A stretch of 64,000 bases of DNA from Sphagnum magellanicum (taxonomy: Eukaryota > Streptophyta > Sphagnopsida > Sphagnales > Sphagnaceae): contig CM038924.1 of NCBI GenBank assembly GCA_021904315.1, forward strand, positions 14,992,026 to 15,056,025. Direction: 5' to 3'. A program made the translations under genes and the position numbers. This document shows positions 7,990 to 21,499 of the stretch, piece by piece (the stretch's first letter is position 1; each line of letters starts with the position of its first letter). The notes beneath the pieces were generated by a model that was not told the origin of the DNA, ran no database searches, and saw only the letters and a list, made by a program, of their open reading frames with translations.

Positions 7990-8908
7990 TAATAAAGTGG
8001 TGGTGCACCTCAATGTGCTTTGTCCTAGCATTATAGACCGGGTTGTTAGCAAGTAGTATGCTACTAATGTTATCACAGTAAATGACAACAAGAACATCCA
8101 CTAATTGTCCCAAATTTGAGAGTAATTTTTATAACCAAACTACTTCACATGTAGCAATTGCTACACCGATGTATTTTGCCTTCGTGCTTGATAGTGCAAC
8201 TGTTGGTTGTTTCTTATTGCTCCAACTAACAGCACCACTTCCAAAAGACAACATGAAACCACTGGTTAATCTTCTATCTAAAACATTGCTAGCCCAATCA
8301 GCATCCGTGTATCCATGTACTTATAACTAGCTCTTGGCTTCATAAAAAATTCCACACTGCAAAGTATGTTTTATGTACCTCAGTATGCGTTTCACTACAT
8401 CCAAATGTGGCTTTCGTGGTGTTTGCATGAATTGACTTACCACTCCAACTGCATAACTCAAATTTGGCCTTATGATGGTCATGTAAATCAAACTCCCCAT
8501 TATGCGTCTATACATAGTGGTATCCTCCACAAGGTCTCCTTCATCTGCACTTAACTTCACATTTTGCTTTAATGGAATTGAAATGGGTTTGCAACCCATC
8601 ATCCCATATTCGGATAGTTTGTTCAAGGCATATTGCTTTTGTAATAATTATATCCCTTTAGGGGATTGGATTACCTTAATGCCGAAGAAGTAACACAATT
8701 CTCCCAAATATTTCATCTCAAACTTTTGCTTCAAAAGCTTATTCAAATAAGAGATGTCTGCATCACTATTTCCTGTGATAATCAAATCATCAACATAGAT
8801 GATTATGAATACAATTTCATTATCTGTTTTTTTCACATATAGTGAATTTTTTTCACATATAGTGAAAAATCTACATTGGATGTTTGAATATACTTCTGAC
8901 AAGATATC
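7990..8908 (-). pseudogene. Copia reverse transcriptase (C-terminal part) and RNase H, fossil
   Basis: On the minus strand this stretch shows the copia catalytic motif YVDDLIITG (about 8770-8800). It is followed by the connector with YRRIMGSLIYMT and RPNLSYAVG, and then RNase H-like sequence towards 7990. These are the standard downstream parts of a Ty1/copia polyprotein. The region ends at the insertion point of the CACTA element. Broken; part of the 7523-23041 fossil. Confidence 0.85.
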
Positions 8909-9380
8909 CACTACAACAATAGGGGGTTATTTTGCGATCCACATATCATCGCAAACAACAAAGAAAGAAGTTTCCGAAAACCCGCATTTGCGAACCATAA
9001 CTCCTCACAAACTGTTAAGCCTTTGCGATACTATAACATTTGCACTCGTACAATCGCAAGTCCTTCACAACTCCCGAACTTGACACAATCGCAAAACTTT
9101 TACGATCGTAACTACTTCTATATATCGTTTGCGATTGACATTACATCGGAAACTATTTGTAACAAACCCATCGTTGCAACGACTTGGCGAATCGACTCAA
9201 AAGTCTATCGGTTTCCGAAATAATGTCCATCGCAAACCCTTAGCGGCATATTGAGAATCCCAACAAGTTTGCATTAGATCTTATATCGGAAACCAGGCAA
9301 ACTTTTTGGGATTCTCAGAATGCTTCTAAAAGTTTACGAAATCATAGATTTCGCAAACGTGTTCTGGAATGATTTTACCC
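8909..9380. repeat. CACTA left subterminal repeat cluster
   Basis: About nine copies of a TTTGCGAT/ATCGCAAA core in both orientations lie in the first ~470 bp (for example near 8932, 8948, 8988, 9018, 9052, 9090, 9130, 9230, 9350). In En/Spm, subterminal motifs of this kind are bound by the TNPA protein to bring the two ends together. Here the core motif is different but arranged in the same way. The binding role is inferred. Confidence 0.8.
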
Positions 9381-9629
9381 CCAAGAGTGTAGCGATGTCT
9401 GTGACATGGTATTATTGGTCTTTTGGCTTTTACAGTAGTGCGAAGAATTATAATTCACAATTTTTTTTGAGATGTACTGTGTATCGTAAGAACATGGCAC
9501 TGTATTCTTATTTTGGAAGCAGGGTTTATTTGGGTCACTTTGGACCGCAAAAAAAAAATCTATATCAAAATTTCAAAATTTACAATGTAAAAGGGTTTGC
9601 AACCTTTGGGTATCTAACACACTAGCTGT

Positions 9630-11535
9630 CTATCTAGACCTTCTTCCCCTCTTGGATTTCTTCCTTGAATCTTTCTTCTTAGTGTTCTCTGGTGGAGGGG
9701 GAGGCTGCTCATCCTCCTCCCTCTTTTCATCGTCCCCCTGCCCCTCCTCCTCCTCCTGCTCCTCCTCCCTATTCTCTTTATCTTTGGCCCCTACAGAACC
9801 TTCATTTCGACTAGCAAATGAACTGGGTCCACTACTAGTGGTAGCACTCGGAGCAGGTAGCACACTGGGAGCAGTGCTACTTGTTCTCTCTTCCTCATCT
9901 CTCTCCTCTTCATCACTGTTGCCCTCGGAGCTCTCACTCTCACCCTTAGATACGTGCATTTCAACATGCAAAGCTTAGTCAACACCATAAATGAAAATCT
10001 TGATTCAAATGAAAACAATTTCAACACAAACAGAAATTGAATCCCAACCAAACCCACTCACCAATAGTGCATCAACATGTTGAAAAAAATGCTCCTTGCC
10101 ATGCTCCTGGCCCATATTCATTTTTGTAGCTATGATCTTCCTCTTGTACCTCTTATACTGTCCCCATAATACAACATGTAAAAAAAACACATAAAAAATC
10201 TATTCAAGTCTCCGATCACTTTTGCGAAGCGCAGACCTTTGCATATTGACACTTATGAAGCAGCTTGTGAAACAAATCACCTTGTATCTACTATCGCAAC
10301 CCAAAAGGCCAAAACTCCATATACATGTCTTTGCGATGCAATTCGCATCGCAAAGGTATCGCATCGTAAAGGTATCGTAAACAGTCGAGTTTGACTTGAC
10401 AGAAACTCACAAGCATGTGAGTCTTTACAAGAAAGAAATGGAGGAGAGGGTTTAGGGTACTTACAAATGCTGCTTTGAGGCCGGGAATGCCACCTTGCCC
10501 TAGCCTGTGGGTGGTGTTTGGAACCGTTTTCACTCGCTCTGCTGCCTTCAAGAACTTCAATGGTGGATCACCAACCTTGTCCACCACTGATTGGCATTCA
10601 GCAAGCTTCAGCTCCAGTGCCTTCAGGTCACGGTCAGACCTCCCAAACTCTCTTGCCTTCTTGGCCTTGGCTAGCTGCTCTGTGATCTCCTTCAGTTGCC
10701 TTGCTGCTTTCAACTGCACCTCAAACTGGTAGAAGGCATTCCAGATTTCTTCTGAGAACTGAAGCGGCCTCTCCAAGTTCCTGTACACATTCAGGTCTCT
10801 CAGGTGAGCACGAATCTTCATCCTGTCATGGTATCTTGCTTGAGACATTGAATTGGAGATCTTGTCTGCAATCCACTATGAATCAAACTCTCCTCCATTT
10901 CGAAATGCTCCCTTGACCTGATTTATCACTCTCTTCTGCTCTGCCTTTGAGAAAGTGCCCCACTCAACTCCTTGTGCAAAGTTGGTGGAGACAATGTGCC
11001 TAATGGTGCTCTTCGCCCCAGTGTATGCTAGCTCGGTTGGAATTCCCTCCTCCGCCAATGTTATCTGAGGGAGCTTCTTCCTCTCCTCCTCCTTCTTCTT
11101 CAGGTCGAGCTTCTCCTTTCTTATGGCATCCCTCTCATCCTTCCTCCTTTTCTTCTCGAGAGTTATAAGTGAGAGAGCTCCTGTTGTTGCTCTCTCATCT
11201 CTCTTTCTCTTCTTCTCTGCTGCCTTGGCTTCGGTAGCCTTCCTTACCTTGGCTTCGGTAGCCTTCCTTGCCTTGGCTTCGGCAGCCTTCCTTGCCTCGG
11301 CTTCGGCAGCCTTCCTTGCCTCGGCTTCGACAGCCTTCCTTGCCTCCTCATCTCTTTGTGCTTCCCCAACAGTCAGCCCTGCTTGCAGCGCTTGACCTAA
11401 AATGGCTGTCAAGGATACCAACCTTTCAGATGTCCTAGTATCGATTGCAGAGAGCTCTGAAGCTCTTAAGTGATCAGCAATCATCTTCCTCAACCTTTTT
11501 TCATTGTTGCCATGTCGCAACCCCACTTTGGCCAA
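9630..11535 (-). CDS. TNPA-like CACTA accessory protein, spliced, with one nonsense codon
   Basis: On the minus strand the protein reads GNNEKRLRKMIADHLRAS, then a strongly charged coiled coil of repeated EARKAAEA units (11345-11228). Next come a basic KKRKRDER region and a conserved globular stretch with WGTFSKAEQKRVINQVKG. The frame continues after a TAG at 10876-10878 into WIADKISNSMSQARYHDRMK and a second helical segment that ends at a GTAAGT donor near 10464. A later exon (about 10167-10074, YKRYKRKI...FFQHVDALL) lies between AG and GTGAGT sites. The last exon (to 9630) is an acidic tail followed by a basic KKKSKRGRRSR-like end. The W-x-x-K-x-x-N-x-M-S-x-A-R-Y layout recalls plant En/Spm-type second proteins (Transposase_24-like). 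The 5' end is uncertain; a first exon with MAGTGGRGSGSGGG near 12150 is possible. It is divergent from the transposase gene, whereas in maize En/Spm the two products share one strand. Confidence 0.65.
10205..10385. repeat. Internal TTGCGAT-motif cluster in a TNPA-like intron
   Basis: Within the intron between the exons ending near 10464 and starting near 10167 there are several TTGCGAT/ATCGCAA cores (around 10222, 10290, 10332, 10345, 10355, 10368). This is the same motif found at both element ends. Confidence 0.7.
11228..11345 (-). repeat. 24-bp coding tandem repeat in the TNPA-like gene
   Basis: About five imperfect copies of a 24-bp unit (GCCTTCCTTGCCTCGGCTTC core on the plus strand). It encodes the octapeptide-like EARKAAEA series on the minus strand and extends an alanine/glutamate/lysine-rich coiled coil. 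Confidence 0.85.
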
Positions 11536-11935
11536 GTGTGGGGGTGAAGCCCAACACTTGGAAAAGTTGGAGGTTTGGAGCCCTCCGGGACTCCCAAATG
11601 TTTAGAGCTCAACAGCAAGGCCCAAAACACCTCGTATTGAGGTGTTCTTGGTATCATTGGAAAGGTCTTGAAGCGTAGATATCGAAAATGGCCTCGCATT
11701 GGTCATTCGGACATCTGCAGCCCAAGTTATGGGCAAAAGAAGGGCCAGAAATCAAATTGGCAGGGGGAAGATGGTGGCTTCCCCCGAGTCCGGGCCGTGG
11801 TGAGTCTTGTGTGTCCAAGTGCCCGTGGCAAGTCCCAACACCCAAGGGTGTTCCGAATGCTAAACTAACCTCTTGTGGTTGGTTTTTGGATGCAGATTCA
11901 CACGAGCTAAAGTAGTCCCTCTTCCTAGTTTAATC
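11536..11935. other. GC-richer segment of unknown origin inside the CACTA element
   Basis: Between the TNPA-like coding exon and its possible first exon lies ~400 bp that is visibly richer in G+C and CpG than its surroundings. It has blocks such as GACATCTGCAGCCCAAG and CCCCGAGTCCGGGCCG. It has frames on both strands but no recognised domain. It may be intron or 5' leader sequence of the TNPA-like gene, or a smaller nested insertion. No terminal repeats were found. Confidence 0.4.
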
Positions 11936-12279
11936 CCTGGGCTCCCAACTCGACCCTCTACCCCTTTTTAGAGTTGGAAACCGGGAGTGTGCCACTAAGT
12001 CACAATTTCCGCAACTTGACTTTGTGAAACCCTCAAGTGGGTTTCACTCCGTGATTTGGGAGCGCGTCATGTCACCTCCTCCAGACCCAGACCCCCTTCC
12101 ACCAGTCCCAGCCATTACAATCCGCTCTGCCCAAGCTTTCCTTCGACAGTTCTCGTGCAATGCCGAGAATGAATTCAAATTCCGACGTCGTTTCACTCTA
12201 GGACCCCAGAAAGATTTCACTACACCAGCTTTAAAGGATTTCATTTCACTACACCTTAGGGACTTTTAGCAATTCAAGT

Positions 12280-12475
12280 CTTGCGATGTAACTCACATCG
12301 GAACTTGCGTACGGGTTTTATCGCAAAGGCCATTCAATGTTGTTACTTTCGCAACGTTATAGGGTTGCGAAGTTGGGGACTTCGCTTATGTAAGAGGAAG
12401 TTTTAAGGTTTAGGGCTTTAGTGCGAAGAGGGATGTGATGGTGGGGGGTTCGCAAGGGGTTCACAAAGATTTTAT
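12280..12475. promoter_or_regulatory. TTGCGAT-motif cluster between the divergent CACTA genes
   Basis: Several TTGCGAT/ATCGCAA-type cores (around 12282, 12319, 12349, 12365, 12381, 12422, 12450) lie between the minus-strand TNPA-like gene and the plus-strand SET/transposase genes. In En/Spm the TNPA protein also binds near the promoter and regulates it. An autoregulatory role here is an inference from position and motif identity. Confidence 0.5.
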
Positions 12476-12750
12476 TTATTCTGGCTTTAACATTTTGTTG
12501 TTTTTTTTTGCATATGCCAAAGGGTTTTTACAGTATTGCCCCCTACTTCGAAATTGGTGTTGGGATTATTTGAGCAACCAGTCCTATAGGCATTGTTGAG
12601 CCCACATTGGATGCAGGTATGCATTTCTTTTTTGTTTCGGTTGTCTCAATTTATGAGTAGTCAAGGGTTTATATTATTGTATGAGATGATTTTTGAAAGT
12701 CTAATCTGGTCTTTGCCTTACACTTGTGCCGTATTAATGTGACAGATGAT

Positions 12751-13898
12751 ATGTTTTCCTCCTCCATTGTGTCCACTAGTGACTCATCCTCCTCAAATGA
12801 GGACACATCAGCTCATACGCAGGCAGAGGTGTCTCATTCTCCTCGTGGTCCACCTCGACAGCTTTGCCAATGCACCAAGTGTGTTGGTCAGATTTCACAA
12901 AAGTCATATGTTTGTGCTCAACACATTTAGCGATTTGGGCGTCATCGTGGTCTTACTCCAGGAGCTTCTTCATCTCATGTGGTAAGTGTCATTTACCATT
13001 GTCATTTTTTCCTCTTTGATACATGTTATTTTTCATGAAGTCCTCTTTGAAACTATTTTCACTTCCATGGTTTGTTGTGGTTTTTTGAATGTAATAGGGT
13101 TCCCGTATGAAACCACCACCCTATGTTCTATCACAAGGGGTTTTAGCTGCCATAGGAAATGCACTTTCGCAGGCATTTGCTGTAGGGATTGGTACTTCTC
13201 ATGAGGCCAATAAGCCACAACATGCTACAAGGCCACGTGTGCCCTCCATTAGACAGTGATCCAAAGCACAACGTCCAAGTGAGGGTCATGCTAGGACTAT
13301 TGTTGAGGGCAGATGGGGTATGTGTGAGTTCACTGGCAAATGTGCCAATATTATCCAATCATGGAACCCTACAGTTCTTGGGTTGCTTGATAGTTTGCCC
13401 TATGATGAGGAGGTTGTGGTTTGGGGTAGACGATGGATTGTTAAGACTTCTACACTTGGAGAGAGGCATGGCTATGGAGTATATGCTTGTGAGGACATCA
13501 TTGTAGAGGATTCAGCTATATGTCGTAGAGAGGGTCCTACTTTGTTCCCTTATGGTGGGCCTATCTATAAGAAAAGACATTGGAATAGGATCCTCACACA
13601 ACATCCTGAGTGGAAGACCTTTGCTCTTGAGATGGACACCTTTGCTGGTAGCACTAGAAGGCATAGTGATGTGAAGGTGATAGATGGAGACCCCATACGT
13701 TCTGGAAACATTGGTGGTTTCATCAACAGTACAATGGGGACTCATCCTAAGCGTAGGGCTAATTGTGAGTGGGTTTTTGTTGAGGGACCTCCTCCAGCAC
13801 CATATGGCCAGGCTTATCATGAAGACCATTGCCTGGTTATAGCTACTAGGACCATCAGATCAGGAGATGAGTTGTTTACACACTATGAGTGGAGTTAG
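12751..13898 (+). CDS. CACTA-borne Cys/His motif plus SET-like domain protein, two exons, two nonsense codons
   Basis: Exon A (ATG at 12751, to 12981) encodes a Ser-rich start and then LCQCTKCVGQISQK with a downstream QHI, a possible zinc-binding C-x2-C...H motif like those at the N-termini of CACTA transposases. A GTAAGT donor at 12982 and an AG at 13096-13097 join it in phase to exon B (13098-13898). Numbered from the Met at 13320, exon B has GYGVYA (51-56), GNIGGFINS (129-137), NCE (148-150) and TRTIRSGDELFTHYEW (176-191). These match, in order, the SET-domain GxG strand, the N-x-x-x-F-I-N-H/S motif and the C-terminal G-E-E-L-x-Y-x-Y motif. The histidine and cysteine of NHSC are replaced (INST), so methyltransferase activity is uncertain. 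TAG at 12928-12930 and TGA at 13257-13259 interrupt the frame. It ends 167 bp before the transposase ATG. It could be a separate gene or the 5' part of a spliced fusion. Confidence 0.65.
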
Positions 13899-14065
13899 GA
13901 TTCCACCATTTCTGAACTATGTACTTTGTTTAAGACATAACATACCATATCTATATACATGCATTTTGGCATTTTTTATTTATAATGTAATATGCAACTA
14001 TGCTTGGTATATAGTTAAGATCTTCTGGATTTGGTATTGCATAGAATATTTGGCCTTCTGAAGAC

Positions 14066-17000
14066 ATGCTGCCATGGAGGTTAAAGGCAACATATTGGGA
14101 AATGGGCATGCCACACAAATCAGACTCTTCATCAACTCATTCTTCATCAAATGACTTGTTTGTTCATGATGAAGGTGTCTCTCAACCAGTTCAGGAAGCA
14201 CCACTGCCTGCAAACCAAGAACAAGCAATGGATGACTTCATGGTTGACTGGTTTGGACTTGACATAGTTGATGATATGTCTGGCAACCCACGTGATGAAA
14301 GAGCCAATGCAGATGTTCCACATCATCAACATACTGCCCAAGGACAACGGCAATGGCAAGAGGCGAAGGCACATGCTCGAACACCTATTTTTCAAGGTGC
14401 AAGGTTAAGTCGTTTAGCAGCCATACTGGGGTTGTTAAACATCCAAGCAAAACACAAGGCAAACAATACTATGTTGTTAGACATTTTCCAGTATTGTCAT
14501 AGCCTCTTGCTGCCTGAGGAAAATGTTTTGCCAGGATCTTGGAAGGAGGCTAAAAAGATCTTATCCTCCATAGGCATGGAGTATCAAATTGTCCAGGCAT
14601 GTGTTAATGACTGCATGCTATTTCATGGGAACAATGCCCATTTAACGGAGTGCAGTACATGTGAAGAGGCTCAATATGATCCTCACATGCTTACAGAAAA
14701 GGTGCCCAGGAAATTAGTAAGGTGGTTTCCCATTATTCCTCGCTTGTTGCACATGTATCGATGTACAGACTTGGCCGAGTTAATGGTTTGGCATAAGAAA
14801 CATCGATCAGAGCCTGGTGTTATGAGGTTAGCGGTTGACTCTCCTGCTCACAAGCATGTGGAGTCAACATGGCCAGAGTTTGAGCGTGACCCTAGGCATC
14901 TAAGGTTGGGGTTAGCATCAGATGGTGTTAGTCCACATTCACTTGGAGGAAAGGGACGACCTACCTATGTTTGGCCAGTTGTTGTCATGAATTACAACCT
15001 TCCTCCATGGTTGTTTATGAGAAAAGGATTTTTGCTACTTTCTCTTATTATCCCAGGGCCAAGTAAGGTGAAAAACCTAGACACCTACTTAGCACTAGTG
15101 GTCAATGAGCTCAAAACGTTGTGGGATGGAGTATGGGCATATGATGGGAGGAAGACCATTGGAGGAATACCACGTGTATTCAAGTTGAGGGCAATTTGCA
15201 TGTGGACAATGCATGATTATCCTGGTAAGAAATCATGCACATGCCTCTCTATATATTTTTATTATTCTGTTTTGTGATTATTTGTTATTCTAATATTCAG
15301 CTCTTCTACAATCAGGGTTTGGTTTTGTAAGTGGGCTGCAAACTCAAGGCTACAAGGCCTGCTCTACATGTGGCCCAAGTTTGGAGGACATGGCTAAATA
15401 CTCAAGCCATCTTCGCAAAATTGTTTACCTTGGCCATACAAAGTTTCTTCCACTTGGACATGATATGAGATCATACCCACTTTTATTTTCATCTTTTGAC
15501 ATGCCTTATGGTGATGAGCGTGATATTCCAGAAGCTACCACTTTTGCATATTGGAGGGATGTGGCCAATAGAGTTATTGACCCAAATGATTCTATGGTGT
15601 TTGAGGGTAGTGGATTGACAAGGTGGGGTATACTCAACAGCTTGCCTTATTGGGGTGAGTTGAAAATACGTCATCTCTTGGACCCCATGCACATTGAGGG
15701 AAATGTGGGCAAGGCTATCATAAAACAACTCTATGGAGATATGCATAGTAACTTTAGGGAGGCCTGTGAGGATTTTGAGAGGCATCCCGATGTGTGGATT
15801 ACTGTTGATCCTAACACAGGTATTGAGCAACGACCATTAGCTCCATGGACACTTACTACATAGGAAAGAAAAGACTTTCGAAATCGCATAGGAGAGATGC
15901 GATTCCCTACAGGTTTGAACTTTGATGGCAAGGGTTGAATTTAGAAGTACTTTGTTGCTTTTATTTATATTTAAATCTGTATGCCTTATACTAGAAAAAG
16001 AGTTTGAAATATAGTCGGCTATCTGTTGGATGTCTAAAATATTTTTGTATAATTTTATGGATCCTTGTTGCAAGTTATGGAGCTAATCTTCAAAAGGCTT
16101 TTGGTAGGGACGATGACCACAAGTGGCCAAGGTATCTGAAGACACATGACTATCATCGTTTACTGCATCACATATTGCCTGTGGCAATAATAGGCTTAGC
16201 TAATGCAGAAGTACAAGATGCTCTTTGGTCATTGGGATATCTGTTGAGATGGGTATGCTCAAAGGAATTATTTGTAGAGGAGATTCCAAGAATGAGGGTA
16301 ATAGCAACATAAGTGGTATGCAAGTTGGAAAAGGCCTTCCTTCCATCATTTTTTGATTGTCAAGTGCATTTACTAGTTCACCTTGTGGATGAGATAGCCA
16401 TTGCTGGTCCTGTGCATTGTCGATGGATGTATTGGCTTGAAAGATATATGGCAGTATTAAAGGGTTATGTCCGTAACCATGCACGAGTGGAGGGAAGCAT
16501 GGCAACATGACACTTGGCAGCAGAGAGCATGTTTTATTGCACCAACATCTTGGCCACTATAGATCCATCATGTCCTCATGTCTGGATGGAGGAAAGAGAA
16601 GAGGAAGAAGACCGTTTGACTAGTGCCATCCAAACACGTATGTTAAACCCTACAGAGTTAATTCAGCTGACCACATTCATGTTGAATAATAGCAATGTCA
16701 TGGAAGAGTGGAGGAACTTCTATGAGAATGCCAAAAGTATGAGTGGGAGATCAAGGATGTTTCCTACGTTGCATAAGTACATGAAAGAGAAGTTGGCTGA
16801 AGTGGATCAATTGTTGGCACAAGGAGAAAGTATATCATCTTTTCCAGAGATCACAGATGATGTTCGCACCATTGTTCATGGACCACAAAGAGTTGTGACA
16901 ACACGTTCAGCAATGTGGACACAAGGAAGACATTTCAGGTATTTATTTTTTCTATTTCATTAGGCATATTAACTCATCTTCACATTCCAGACAAGTTTTT

Positions 17001-17609
17001 TAGAATGTTCTAGGATGATTTTTATGGGCATGAAGTTTCTATTATCATATAAGTTGTTGACTCACAATGCCTAACACAATATTAATTTCAGGTTCCACTT
17101 TGGATGAAAAGAGGGGCTGCACCTTTGACTATGGAGTTCAAGGGCACTTCATTCAGGACTCTAGAAGCAGTCGGCATGACAAGAATATTGTTCGAGATAT
17201 TGTGCCACATTATGGAAAGCTGGAAGAGATCTTAGTGGTGTCTTATGATGCACATTCAAAGTTTGAAGAGTATGTGTTTAAGTGCAAGCGGTTTAAAGTG
17301 AACCTTGCTGGTGCAAATTGCACTCTAGTTTAGGATGAGTGCGGACACACACGGTTAAAGACATCTACCACCAGTTATCAGCCATCTCATTGGCAAACTT
17401 CAGAGCCATTTACTTTTCCCAGTCATGTAGAACAATGTTTTTATCTTCCTTATCCCCCAAACCCAGAGGAGTGGTCACTTGTTGTCACATATGTGCCACG
17501 GTCCCGTGCTATTCTAGGTGAGAAACCAGAGGTTATGCTTACAACCTCTGAGGTGGATGATGACCACGTATATTGTACTACTCATTATTTTTATGCAAAT
17601 TGCCATTGA
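14066..17609 (+). CDS. CACTA transposase (tnp2 / DUF4218 / DUF4216), multi-exon, four nonsense codons
   Basis: Exon 1 (14066-15224) contains the tnp2 family signature: CMLFHGNNAHLTECSTCEEA, KVPRKLVRWFPIIPRL, a VDSPAHKH...WPEF segment, RHLRLGLASDGVSPH, and WPVVVMNYNLPPWLFMRK with LIIPGP. A 76-bp intron (15225-15300) leads to exon 2 with TQGYKACSTCG, HTKFLPLGHDMR and LLDPMHIEGNVGK. Further exons carry the DUF4218-like block (CKLEKAFLPSFFDCQVHLLV, WMYWLERYMAVLKGYVRNHA) and, after an intron near 16939-17090, a DUF4216-like end (YGKLEEILVV, PFTFPSHVEQCFYL, EEWSLVVTYVPR). Frame-preserving stops occur at 15861 (TAG), 16309 (TAA), 16508 (TGA) and 17331 (TAG), each followed directly by conserved sequence. 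It would cut and join the CACTA ends; this copy is inactivated. Confidence 0.88.
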
Positions 17610-17789
17610 GGCTTGTGGTTCTATATTACTCCACAATGTTCATTGTGTCAAAGTCTTTAGCGAATTTCAGCCTTTATAGTTCTGGGAGTAGGCCCTTTAG
17701 GAACTTTGTACTATTCTCCTTTGCACTACTGCATGTACTACCTCAATGTCACCGAGATTTTATGCAACTTAAAAAAGGTCGTGATAAAT

Positions 17790-18289
17790 CAGATGACATT
17801 GCGAAACCTTTTGTGAAACTTCCTTCTACATGATCCCTTTTACTACTTTGCGAACTAACACACACCGCAACTTGCGATACGTCCAACACCGGAAACTTTT
17901 GTAAAAATTTGTGATGAAGTTTGCGATACATATTTAAACACAAAATGCGATGCGCCTATTAACGCAAGATTGCGATTTCTTGTGAGTCTCAAAGTGTTTT
18001 GCGATAGTTTGTGTATTTTAAAATTTGCGATGTTGTGAGTATGATTAAGAGGTGCGAACTGTGGAATATCGCTAGCGTGCACGGAGACTGAGAGGGTCGC
18101 AAAGTTTTGGTTGTGGTATATGTCGCAAAAGTGTTGCGATGATTTAAGGTACATTATATATTAGCGATGGTTGGTGAGTCACAAGTTGCGATGCGTGTCA
18201 CATCGCAAATATGGCAGGTTGTTTTTACTTCGCAAACCCTTCCGGTTTTTTGTTTTTCCCTTCGCAAAAAGGCACAATATGTAGTAGTG
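17790..18289. repeat. CACTA right subterminal repeat cluster
   Basis: About 17 TTGCGAT/ATCGCAA-like cores in both orientations fill the last ~500 bp (for example near 17799, 17874, 17922, 17947, 17972, 18001, 18028, 18097, 18125, 18136, 18187, 18203, 18229, 18262). They are denser than on the left side, as is usual for CACTA elements. The element ends GTAGTAGTG at 18289. Confidence 0.85.
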
Positions 18290-18747
18290 TATCGACCTAT
18301 CTTGTCTAACCAAACTCTAGGTGCTTGCTTTAAGTCGTACAAAGCTTTCTTTAACCTACAAACCAAATTAGGGTGTGTTTGGTCCACATAACCTGGTGAT
18401 TGTTCCATGTACACTTCTTCATGTAAATCTCCATGAAGAAAAATATTCTTTACATTCATTTGATGTAAAGACCATCCTTTTGCTACTGCCATAGCAATGA
18501 TTGCTCTTACAATTGTCATTTTGGCAATTGGACTATAGGTCTCCTCATAGTCTATGCCATAAGTTTGGGCATAACCTTTGGTAACTAATCTTGCTTTGTA
18601 TCTACTCATAGATCCATCTACATTGTGTTTAACTTTGTACACCCATTTGCACCCAATTGCTTTATTATCCTCTGGTAAAGCTACCAATTCCCAAGTAACA
18701 TCAACATCCAAACCCATCATCTCTTCATCCATGGCATTGTCCCACAT
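18290..18747 (-). pseudogene. Copia reverse transcriptase (N-terminal part), fossil
   Basis: Minus-strand frame with WELVALPEDNKAIGCKWVYK, RYKARLVTKGYAQTYGIDYE, ETYSPIAKM and HGDLHEEVYMEQSPGY, the classic start of a Ty1/copia reverse transcriptase. It stops at the right border of the CACTA insert; the rest of the domain is on the other side (7990-8908). Confidence 0.9.
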
Positions 18748-20128
18748 AGGGTTTCCAACTGCTTGTTCAAAACAAGTGGGTTCAACTTCCTATATAACTC
18801 TCACCATGTATGCGTAATGATGAGCTATAATCCATCATATGTGAATATTTGTACAGGGTATTTGACTCGTGTGGATCTTCGTACTCCACTGTTGTTGTCA
18901 GGTGTTTTCAAAACTTTATTGGCCATCCGAGCTCCAGGAATAGTAGTTGAAGGGATTCTTGATTCTTCACCCACTCTTCTCTAAATCACTTGATTCATCA
19001 TCTACATGAGGATTTTTAGATGATGTTTGAGAACTACCATGTACAATGTTTGAAGATCTTAATCTTCCTTTCCATGGAGTGCTACTGGACCCACTAATTG
19101 AAGACTCTTGTGGTCCACTAATTAATTGTGATTCTTATTCCACATTTGATGAAACATCACCATTTCTAGCTTCTCCATTTTCTGCTACCTTCAGTGGTGA
19201 GTACCAGCTAACCATTTCATCAAACACAACATCTCTACTCACTTACAATTTCCGAGTGGAAGAATTGAAACATCTAAATCCTTTTTGTTCTTAGGAATAT
19301 CCAATGAAGATACATTTTTTAGCTTTCGGGTCTAGTTTTGATCTCTTCTCGTCAGGAACATGCACGTATGCAATGTAACCAAACACTTCGAGGTGTGAAA
19401 CATTGGGTTTCTTGCTTATGAATTTTTCTTCATGTGTCATGCCATGAACTACCACTATGGGTGTTCAATTCATGATATAGACTACAGTTGCTACCGCTTC
19501 AACCCAAAAGTAATTTGGCAAATTCTTCTCATTCAACATGGCACGTGTTATTTCTACAATGTGCATGTTTTTCCTTTCAGCAACTCCATTCTACTGTGGG
19601 GAATAACTACATGAATACTTCTCTTGAATTCCATGCTCCTTCGAGTACTCATTGAATTCATTTGAAAAATACTCTCCCCCTCCATCAAACCTTAGGCACT
19701 TGATGCTCACACCCCTCTCCTTCTCCACCATTGCTTTGAAATTCAAAAAATGTTGAAACACTTCACCTTTGTGTTTCATGAAGTAGGCCCACACCTTCCT
19801 TGTGTGGTCATCAATGAAACTCATGTAGTACTTGCATCCTCTAATGGATTCTATCTTCATGGTCCACACATCTAAGTGGATCATTTCCAAAGGTTTATAA
19901 TTTATATGAGTTGTTTGAGCTGGGAATGGATGCCTAGCTTACTTCCCCAATTGGCATGCTTCACAAACTTTTGACATCACCTCTTCTGTTCCAAATTTGG
20001 GAAGACCTCTAACAAGATTTTGTTTCTCCATTAGCTTAAAACGTTAGAGATTAACATGGCCAACCTGCTTGTGCCAAATTCCAATGTCTCGAGCTCCTTT
20101 TCCATGTGTGAATAACATGGAATTCACC
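18748..20128 (-). pseudogene. Copia integrase region, fossil
   Basis: Minus-strand segments show the copia integrase core (IHLDVWTMKIES, YYMSFIDDHTRKVWAYFMK, FDGGGEYFSNEF, HGIQEKYSCSYSPQ) at 19890-19591. Downstream integrase/linker sequence follows towards 18748. Part of the broken copia fossil. Confidence 0.85.
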
Positions 20129-20540
20129 TTAGGCATGTTCACATCCAAGGTGAACATTCATCCATTCCTTTCCCCTTTTGTAGTCAATTTGCCTTGGTTC
20201 TTCATGTCTTCCACAAAACATCCATTTGGGTTGAATGTCCCCTATAAACTTTGTTCCACCATTTGGCCTACAGAGACCACCGTTTTTTGTTATGGTTGAG
20301 ACATTAAGTACATCTTTCAAGTACTTTGTTTGCCCATCTTGCATGGACAATGGCACCTTGCCAATTTGTGTGATGGGATGTGTAGTGCCATCACCAATTT
20401 CCATAAACCCTGGTGTCTTTAAATCATTTGTGTCTCTAAACCATTATCCATGACTAGTCATGTGGTTTGAAACTCCACAATCCACATACTAAACACTGTT
20501 ATCTGATACACCTCCTATCATTGAATTTGCCATGTGCTGC
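20129..20540 (-). pseudogene. Copia protease/GAG-pre-integrase region, fossil
   Basis: Sequence between Gag and integrase on the minus strand. It includes MEIGDGTTHPITQIGKVPLS and LKDVLNVSTI, which recall the protease-to-pre-integrase segment of copia polyproteins. Part of the broken fossil. Confidence 0.7.
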
Positions 20541-21499
20541 ATCACAAACAGTTGCTCATCATCTTGATTGCTAGTTGATGCATAATTCCCTTGTTGTAGC
20601 TTTCCATTTCGTGCATCATGCTCCCTTTGATAATAGTTCTTTGCCATGTGCCCAGGTTTCCCGCAATAGTAACAATTTGAGTTGCTATTTGGTTGTTGAT
20701 CTCAATGACTTCCACCATGACCTTCACGACTTCTTCGACTTCCTCTTTTTCCAAAGTTTCCTCGTCCACCTCCATGAGTTTGACCTTCATGTTGATGATG
20801 TCCACCATGCGAGCTTTCGTGTCGACCTCGAAATGAAGTTTTACCACCTCTACTTCTACCTCTATTAGTATTTGAGTAGAAAGCACCTCCTTGTGATCCT
20901 CCATTGGATGAAATACCAATAATTCTCATCTTTTCACTTATAAGTAGTGTTATTAAGTCTCGAAAATCAGGAAATGTTTTTCGAACTACAATTGAAGTAC
21001 GAAACTTGCTATAGTTTTTTCCAGGTCCATTCAAGGTGATGGCCACTAGATCTTCATCATCTACAAGGGTTCCTATAGATGTAAGAACATCTACAAGGTT
21101 TTTCACCTCTATAGAATAATCACTGATGTTCATCTTGTTTTTTTTGTAGATTATGCAACTCTTGCTTGAGTTGCATTTTGTAGGCTTGTGTATTGGTGTT
21201 ATACATCTTCACCAATGTATCCCAAGCTTGCTTGGGTGATTTTGCATCTTGAATATGCACAATCATGGAATTGGACACATTCACAAAAAGCCAATATAAG
21301 ACTTTCTTTGCTTTTTCATGCCAAGTTTTATTGGCTTGTTTTGTGTGTGGTTTTATGGGATAAGAGGTTCTTTTTCATCACCAGTTATGAATTCCTAGTA
21401 ACCTTTCCCCATCAAGAAATTCATAATCTTAAATTTCCACACTTGGAAATTGTTTTTGTTTAGTTTCTCAATTGCAATTTGAAAAAGACCGTTTGCCAT
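20541..21499 (-). pseudogene. Copia Gag with CCHC knuckle, fossil
   Basis: A likely Gag start is the ATG whose complement lies at 21497-21499 (MANGLFQIAIEKLNKNNF). The region continues through a UBN2-like capsid segment (EVKNLVDVLTSIGTLVDDED, SEKMRIIG) and a Gly/Arg/His-rich stretch. Near 20660 is a zinc knuckle of the form C-Y-Y-C-G-K-P-G-H-M-x4-Y. Part of the broken fossil. Confidence 0.85.

Follow-up and report, generated by a model that had tools for sequence, protein, structure and literature searches.

A SET gene is a trait of a multi-copy CACTA transposon family in the moss Sphagnum magellanicum, where it occupies a fixed place beside the tnp2 transposase gene; the same pairing is found in liverworts. 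We propose that a zinc-motif SET protein encoded by this bryophyte CACTA element methylates lysine and thereby keeps the element transcribed and mobile, a reading to which we give a probability of about 45%.

The CACTA element and its genes

The window, by which we mean the whole 64,000-nucleotide stretch of S. magellanicum DNA that we analysed, contains a CACTA (EnSpm) element of 9,381 bp on the plus strand (8909–18289), with CACTAC...GTAGTG termini and TATC at each flank. No other classified repeat in Sphagnum is as abundant as CACTA elements, which make up 6.8% of the genome according to the accessible part of PMC9946827. The terminal patterns recur genome-wide, 82 times for the 5′ end and 123 times for the 3′ end, compared with 17 and 2 times for reversed controls. 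Flanking duplications were TATC (4 bp) in the window, GACA (4 bp) at L041/L089 and CTT (3 bp) at L042/L088, and no 3′ end was found for two more copies. A 3-bp target site duplication is expected of CACTA elements. Pieces of a Ty1-copia-like polyprotein flank the element on the minus strand (8327–8926 and 18154–20925), and the CACTA element has apparently inserted into a Ty1-copia element. Towards both ends (8909–9350 and 17790–18289) there are many TTTGCGAT/ATCGCAAA-type repeats, which are candidate binding sites.

The element has three genes. A charged gene on the minus strand (9630–11601), probably helical, had no Pfam match above cut-off; the genome contains 129 matches to its central part, many of them next to SET loci. 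The SET gene (12751–13898) and tnp2 (from 14045) follow on the plus strand, the SET gene lying within the CACTA ends and immediately 5′ of tnp2, as the preliminary description of this DNA had placed it. The first large tnp2 exon (14045–15224) begins past an acceptor-like TTGCATAG and the next spans 15316–15860; the transposase matches PF02992 at 126.1 bits against a cut-off of 28.6.

The SET gene consists of exon A (12751–12981), which encodes a zinc-type C-x-C-x2-C...H motif, an intron (12982–13097, GTAAGT...TAATAG) and exon B (13098–13898), which encodes a linker and the SET domain and ends in a TAG stop; the conserved SET region covers 196 codons (13308–13895). The intron keeps GT in 30 of 30 compared copies and AG in 29. 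The coordinates, the phase 0 reading across the GT–AG intron and the motifs agree with the earlier account of a two-exon gene, and the same two parts are joined in gene models from two other Sphagnum species (P0001 and P0007) and the liverwort Calypogeia (P0015). One point differs: the window copy is decayed, with an in-frame TAG in exon A (12928–12930), a TGA in exon B (13257–13259) and a TAG that ends the tnp2 frame at 15861–15863. Among the 70 best-matching copies, including that of the window, 29 have no interruption of exon B before its stop, and 14 have intact exons A and B with intact splice sites. This set and a set of 30 are the best matches of the SET genome search and are biased towards the kin of the window copy for that reason.

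SET–tnp2 linkage across the genome

A search for copies of the SET gene returned at least 119 pieces, which merge into at least 105 loci. The tnp2 search returned at least 132 pieces, 112 from the SET-linked family and 20 from families 41–47% alike, with at least 103 family loci; these counts are lower bounds, because only the best candidates were scored. At least 100 SET loci have a tnp2 on the same strand within 12 kb downstream, 97 of them at no more than 700 bp, with 426 bp as the most frequent spacing. Among the loci found, 100 of the 103 tnp2 loci are paired with SET, leaving 3 tnp2 loci and 5 SET loci unpaired. For the 20 tnp2 loci of the distant families, a SET locus was present within 20 kb in a single case, on the opposite strand.

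The element ends give a similar picture. A 5′ end lies within 15 kb upstream of 67 of the 105 SET loci and, among 100 of the 123 3′ ends, a 3′ end lies within 15 kb downstream of at least 79. With the same 100 3′ ends, at least 51 of the 105 loci have both ends around SET, at least 26 of these pairs being 8.6–8.8 kb apart, and at least 7 two-ended elements lack SET. Nested elements may lie behind some of the long end pairs. Family SET and tnp2 were both absent from the stretch examined at two SET-less loci: L092 is an internal deletion in which the equivalent of 10860–17106 is gone, and the 4 kb examined of L093 are unrelated to the element of the window.

The preliminary description had proposed looking for the gene at the same place in other copies and had called it cargo inside a CACTA transposon. 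The fixed place within the element stands, borne out by the 100 paired tnp2 loci and by the two-ended elements around SET, of which there are at least 51. The term cargo fits it badly, because the SET exon lies between an exon with a transposase-like zinc motif and the tnp2 exons, and because a moss and liverworts share the pairing.

The SET fold

The window sequence matches the Pfam SET profile (PF00856) at 26.9 bits, above the cut-off of 22.4; of ten relatives scanned, six were above the cut-off, two were under it and two had no match. A confident structure model of the SET region had as its best structural matches in the PDB SET enzymes, chiefly histone methyltransferases. Profile and structure, the comparisons suggested earlier for this gene, thus concur, and we conclude from profile and model that the window gene is one predicted to encode a true SET fold. 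Chance resemblance to SET is ruled out by the two together. An AlphaFold model of the whole SET protein (pLDDT 34) was set aside.

Other searches were less productive. A genome-wide PF00856 scan at E ≤ 0.001 gave 47 matches, with the window copy absent and a few of its sister copies present. Two of the sequence searches of the PDB had no match and a third reached E 1.1 at best, a search of NCBIfam gave nothing useful, and 43 stretches of viral contigs held no relative. Against the family profile, single host SET proteins scored 0.2–21.6%, which is weak, and a profile of three scored 81.4%. The genome also has a second, dispersed set of broken SET matches that is absent from the SET copy search, covering profile positions 1–73 in frames of 117–126 amino acids (C12:19275888, C12:19350180, C12:19158796, C1:23124129, C5:3245775, C5:2323053 and C5:2290501).

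Exon A and the transposase gene

In the SET-less Sphagnum loci L045–L047 (L046 and L047 being close kin), the tnp2 frame itself starts with C-P-C-x2-C-x-G...H-L...N-G-R-H, which reads L-C-P-C in L047, and the N-terminal stretch of a metagenome relative, P0102, is Pfam Transpos_assoc (PF13963; 31.6 bits, cut-off 27.7). The SET family has a similar motif in exon A but none in the tnp2 frame. Aligning exon A with the tnp2 N-terminal motif by hhalign gave 88.5% and a score of 31.7, with 6 rows against 22, the latter chosen by their cysteine pattern. None of the shuffled controls (3 × 150) reached this score; the maxima were 16.5 with columns free, and 28.5 (cysteines fixed) and 28.0 with motif columns held. 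At E values up to 0.1, Pfam lists PF13963 in neither P0001 nor P0055. The zinc-type motif occurs together with SET in Sphagnum, in Calypogeia and in the metagenome protein P0055.

The SET domain therefore seems, from these motif comparisons, to sit within the transposase gene. Since the motif is in exon A and tnp2 opens at the acceptor-like TTGCATAG in the phase of exon A, this exon could be shared by SET and tnp2. The AG at this site is kept in 29 of 30 copies, which says little because the copies are so alike. The peptide PSEDMLPRRL at the first methionine of tnp2 resembles P0083 and P0101. Serving both products would involve exon A splicing straight to tnp2, and the proteins examined included no such direct join. 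The fuller version of this idea is that alternative splicing puts a transposase-derived zinc module before either the transposase or a SET methyltransferase, so that only the chromatin of the element is marked, in a unit of long standing among bryophytes that may have been transferred between mosses and liverworts; taken as a whole, we regard it as possible, if doubtful.

Relatives in mosses and liverworts

Among the named rows of two SET searches, relatives of the SET protein came from Sphagnum species and from the liverworts Calypogeia fissa and Riccia sorocarpa. In Riccia, P0093 combines SET (19.5 bits, under the cut-off) and Transposase_21 in a single gene model, and P0101, from a contig of a different size, has most of the SET domain (by alignment) followed by tnp2 and DUF4218. 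P0013 (SET) and P0083 (tnp2) probably share a contig, the sole basis for this being a longest contig of 8,498 bases for both. SET and tnp2 diverge in step between hosts: identity to the Sphagnum proteins is 77% for SET and 86% for tnp2 in P0013/P0083, 77% and 78.5% in Calypogeia, and 39% and 42–51% in Riccia. The tnp2 tree places the four SET-linked rows in one clade of 17 (support 100/99), within which SET status is known for these 4 of 17, and the three SET-less Sphagnum rows outside it. Under simulated neutral drift, 37 of 1,000 runs kept an open SET frame at 70% identity, as did 2 of 1,000 at 45%; open frames in the relatives are support rather than proof, because databases favour open frames. 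The SET–tnp2 unit is old in bryophytes.

Calypogeia P0015 and P0147 are far nearer to Sphagnum than to the liverwort Riccia. The SET tree, which is unrooted and has long branches flagged, likewise places Calypogeia with Sphagnum and apart from Riccia, and tnp2 of Calypogeia matches that of Sphagnum at 78.5% over 107 residues and that of Riccia at 45%. Horizontal transfer of the element between mosses and liverworts is possible from these sequence comparisons, which do not single it out because old parallel element lineages would give the same pattern. In a separate case from Sphagnum jensenii, a model annotated as a carboxypeptidase (P0076) joins part of the SET linker to carboxypeptidase and is either a host–element chimera or an annotation error.

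Possible roles of the SET protein

In plants, transposons are kept silent by methylation of histones and DNA. We suggest that a bryophyte CACTA lineage acquired a SET domain in its transposase gene, between the zinc-motif exon and the tnp2 exons. The element would then yield a protein with the zinc motif and SET and, via another acceptor, perhaps a transposase sharing that motif. Through the zinc motif, the SET protein would be recruited either to the DNA of the element itself or to the transposase complex. There it would methylate a lysine, most probably one on a histone, and so preserve the element's transcription and mobility. The preliminary description had suggested an anti-silencing or targeting role; we favour anti-silencing over silencing or self-limitation on the logic of selection acting on elements and by analogy with TET/JBP transposons and VANDAL regulators. 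Because liverwort relatives have the same SET–tnp2 pairing, the element may edit chromatin that would silence it.

Whether the protein would transfer methyl groups turns on its catalytic residues. The NHSC motif, reported earlier as altered, is indeed replaced: it reads NSTM in the window and mostly NSTV or NSTM in relatives, with Asn kept and His and Cys changed. The post-SET part is absent and the chain stops right past the last catalytic Tyr. These features would fit a SET domain that is retained for binding or as a structural fold and transfers no methyl groups, holding, for example, a histone tail or the transposase complex. Against this, the Asn, last Tyr and G-x-G positions are kept, the Asn and the Tyr in nearly every row; ELFTHY aligns to ELTYDY of a host SET, and this Tyr is nearly invariant (≥ 90%) in alignment A4. 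Moreover, PR/SET enzymes such as PRDM9 are active without NHSC. We therefore consider a purely structural role rather unlikely, and below lysine methylation.

If the protein is an enzyme, its substrate could be the transposase or another non-histone protein, with methylation tuning transposition. The tight linkage of SET to tnp2 and the Riccia models with both in one chain speak for this, but the fold matches mainly histone methyltransferases, albeit that a shared fold shows no target; we judge such a substrate unlikely. It is less likely still that the working product is one SET–transposase chain made by splicing, as in SETMAR. Besides the Riccia models P0093 and P0101, a model from S. jensenii, P0009, links exon A and part of SET to tnp2; P0009 and P0101 leave SET at the same site, where a donor-like GTGAGT (13755–13770) is unchanged in 28 of 30 copies. 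However, both models cut SET ahead of the last Tyr and hence look like gene-finder joins. The frames are separate in the window, and the Sphagnum SET gene has its own stop codon, common to the 30 compared copies (TAA in 2 of them).

We found no clear signal of selection among the copies in the S. magellanicum genome, variation being near neutral for SET and tnp2 alike. In the best 70 copies, observed/expected N/S by frequency class was 0.97, 1.01, 0.66 and 1.01 for exon B and 0.78, 0.40, 0.77 and 0.28 for exon A; over all classes it was 0.70 for SET and 0.88 for tnp2 in the best 30. Diversity figures (0.093 for tnp2) were uneven, probably owing to rearranged copies, and were excluded. Near-neutral variation, many broken copies and the capture of gene pieces by CACTA elements, as in grapevine (PMC2528002, in the part available), would suit a passenger gene captured once and without a role for the element, but the transposase varies in the same way, SET keeps its fixed place beside nearly all tnp2 loci of the family, and open frames occur in several genera, two of them liverworts, so we reject this as the main reading and consider it highly improbable.

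Comparison with known systems

If the lysine-methylation reading is true, such an element, which maintains its own histone-methyltransferase-like protein next to its transposase, would give direct access to the ways in which transposons resist or exploit chromatin. The combination of zinc part and SET may offer a natural targeting module, and the SET gene illustrates that a transposase gene can gain a domain in the form of an exon.

The nearest described parallels are the HarbingerS and MuDR transposons of Phytophthora that carry a SET gene (Kojima and Jurka 2014, as cited in the accessible part of PMC12730594). Like the moss element, these are DNA transposons with a SET gene beside the transposase, but they belong to other superfamilies and hosts; the comparison is by description. 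The openly accessible literature searched held, in the parts available, no CACTA or plant case of a SET-bearing transposon. Fungal DNA transposons bearing TET/JBP genes, some of them EnSpm, resemble the moss element in carrying a gene for an enzyme of chromatin or DNA marks, but differ in chemistry (methylcytosine oxidation), fold and hosts; the same source, in the part available, names the plant VANDAL regulators as a parallel (PMC12730594). Grapevine CACTA families with ULP1 genes (PMC2528002, likewise in part) resemble it as plant CACTA elements, several families of which encode an additional enzyme, but that enzyme is a protease and not SET. Compared with the methyltransferases Set1/COMPASS, EZH2, SETD8 and SET7/9, the moss SET has 16–21% identity, a changed NHSC and no post-SET part. 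SETMAR is a primate SET and mariner transposase in a single host gene. It likewise brings SET and a transposase together, whereas the moss pair is part of a mobile CACTA element present in many copies.
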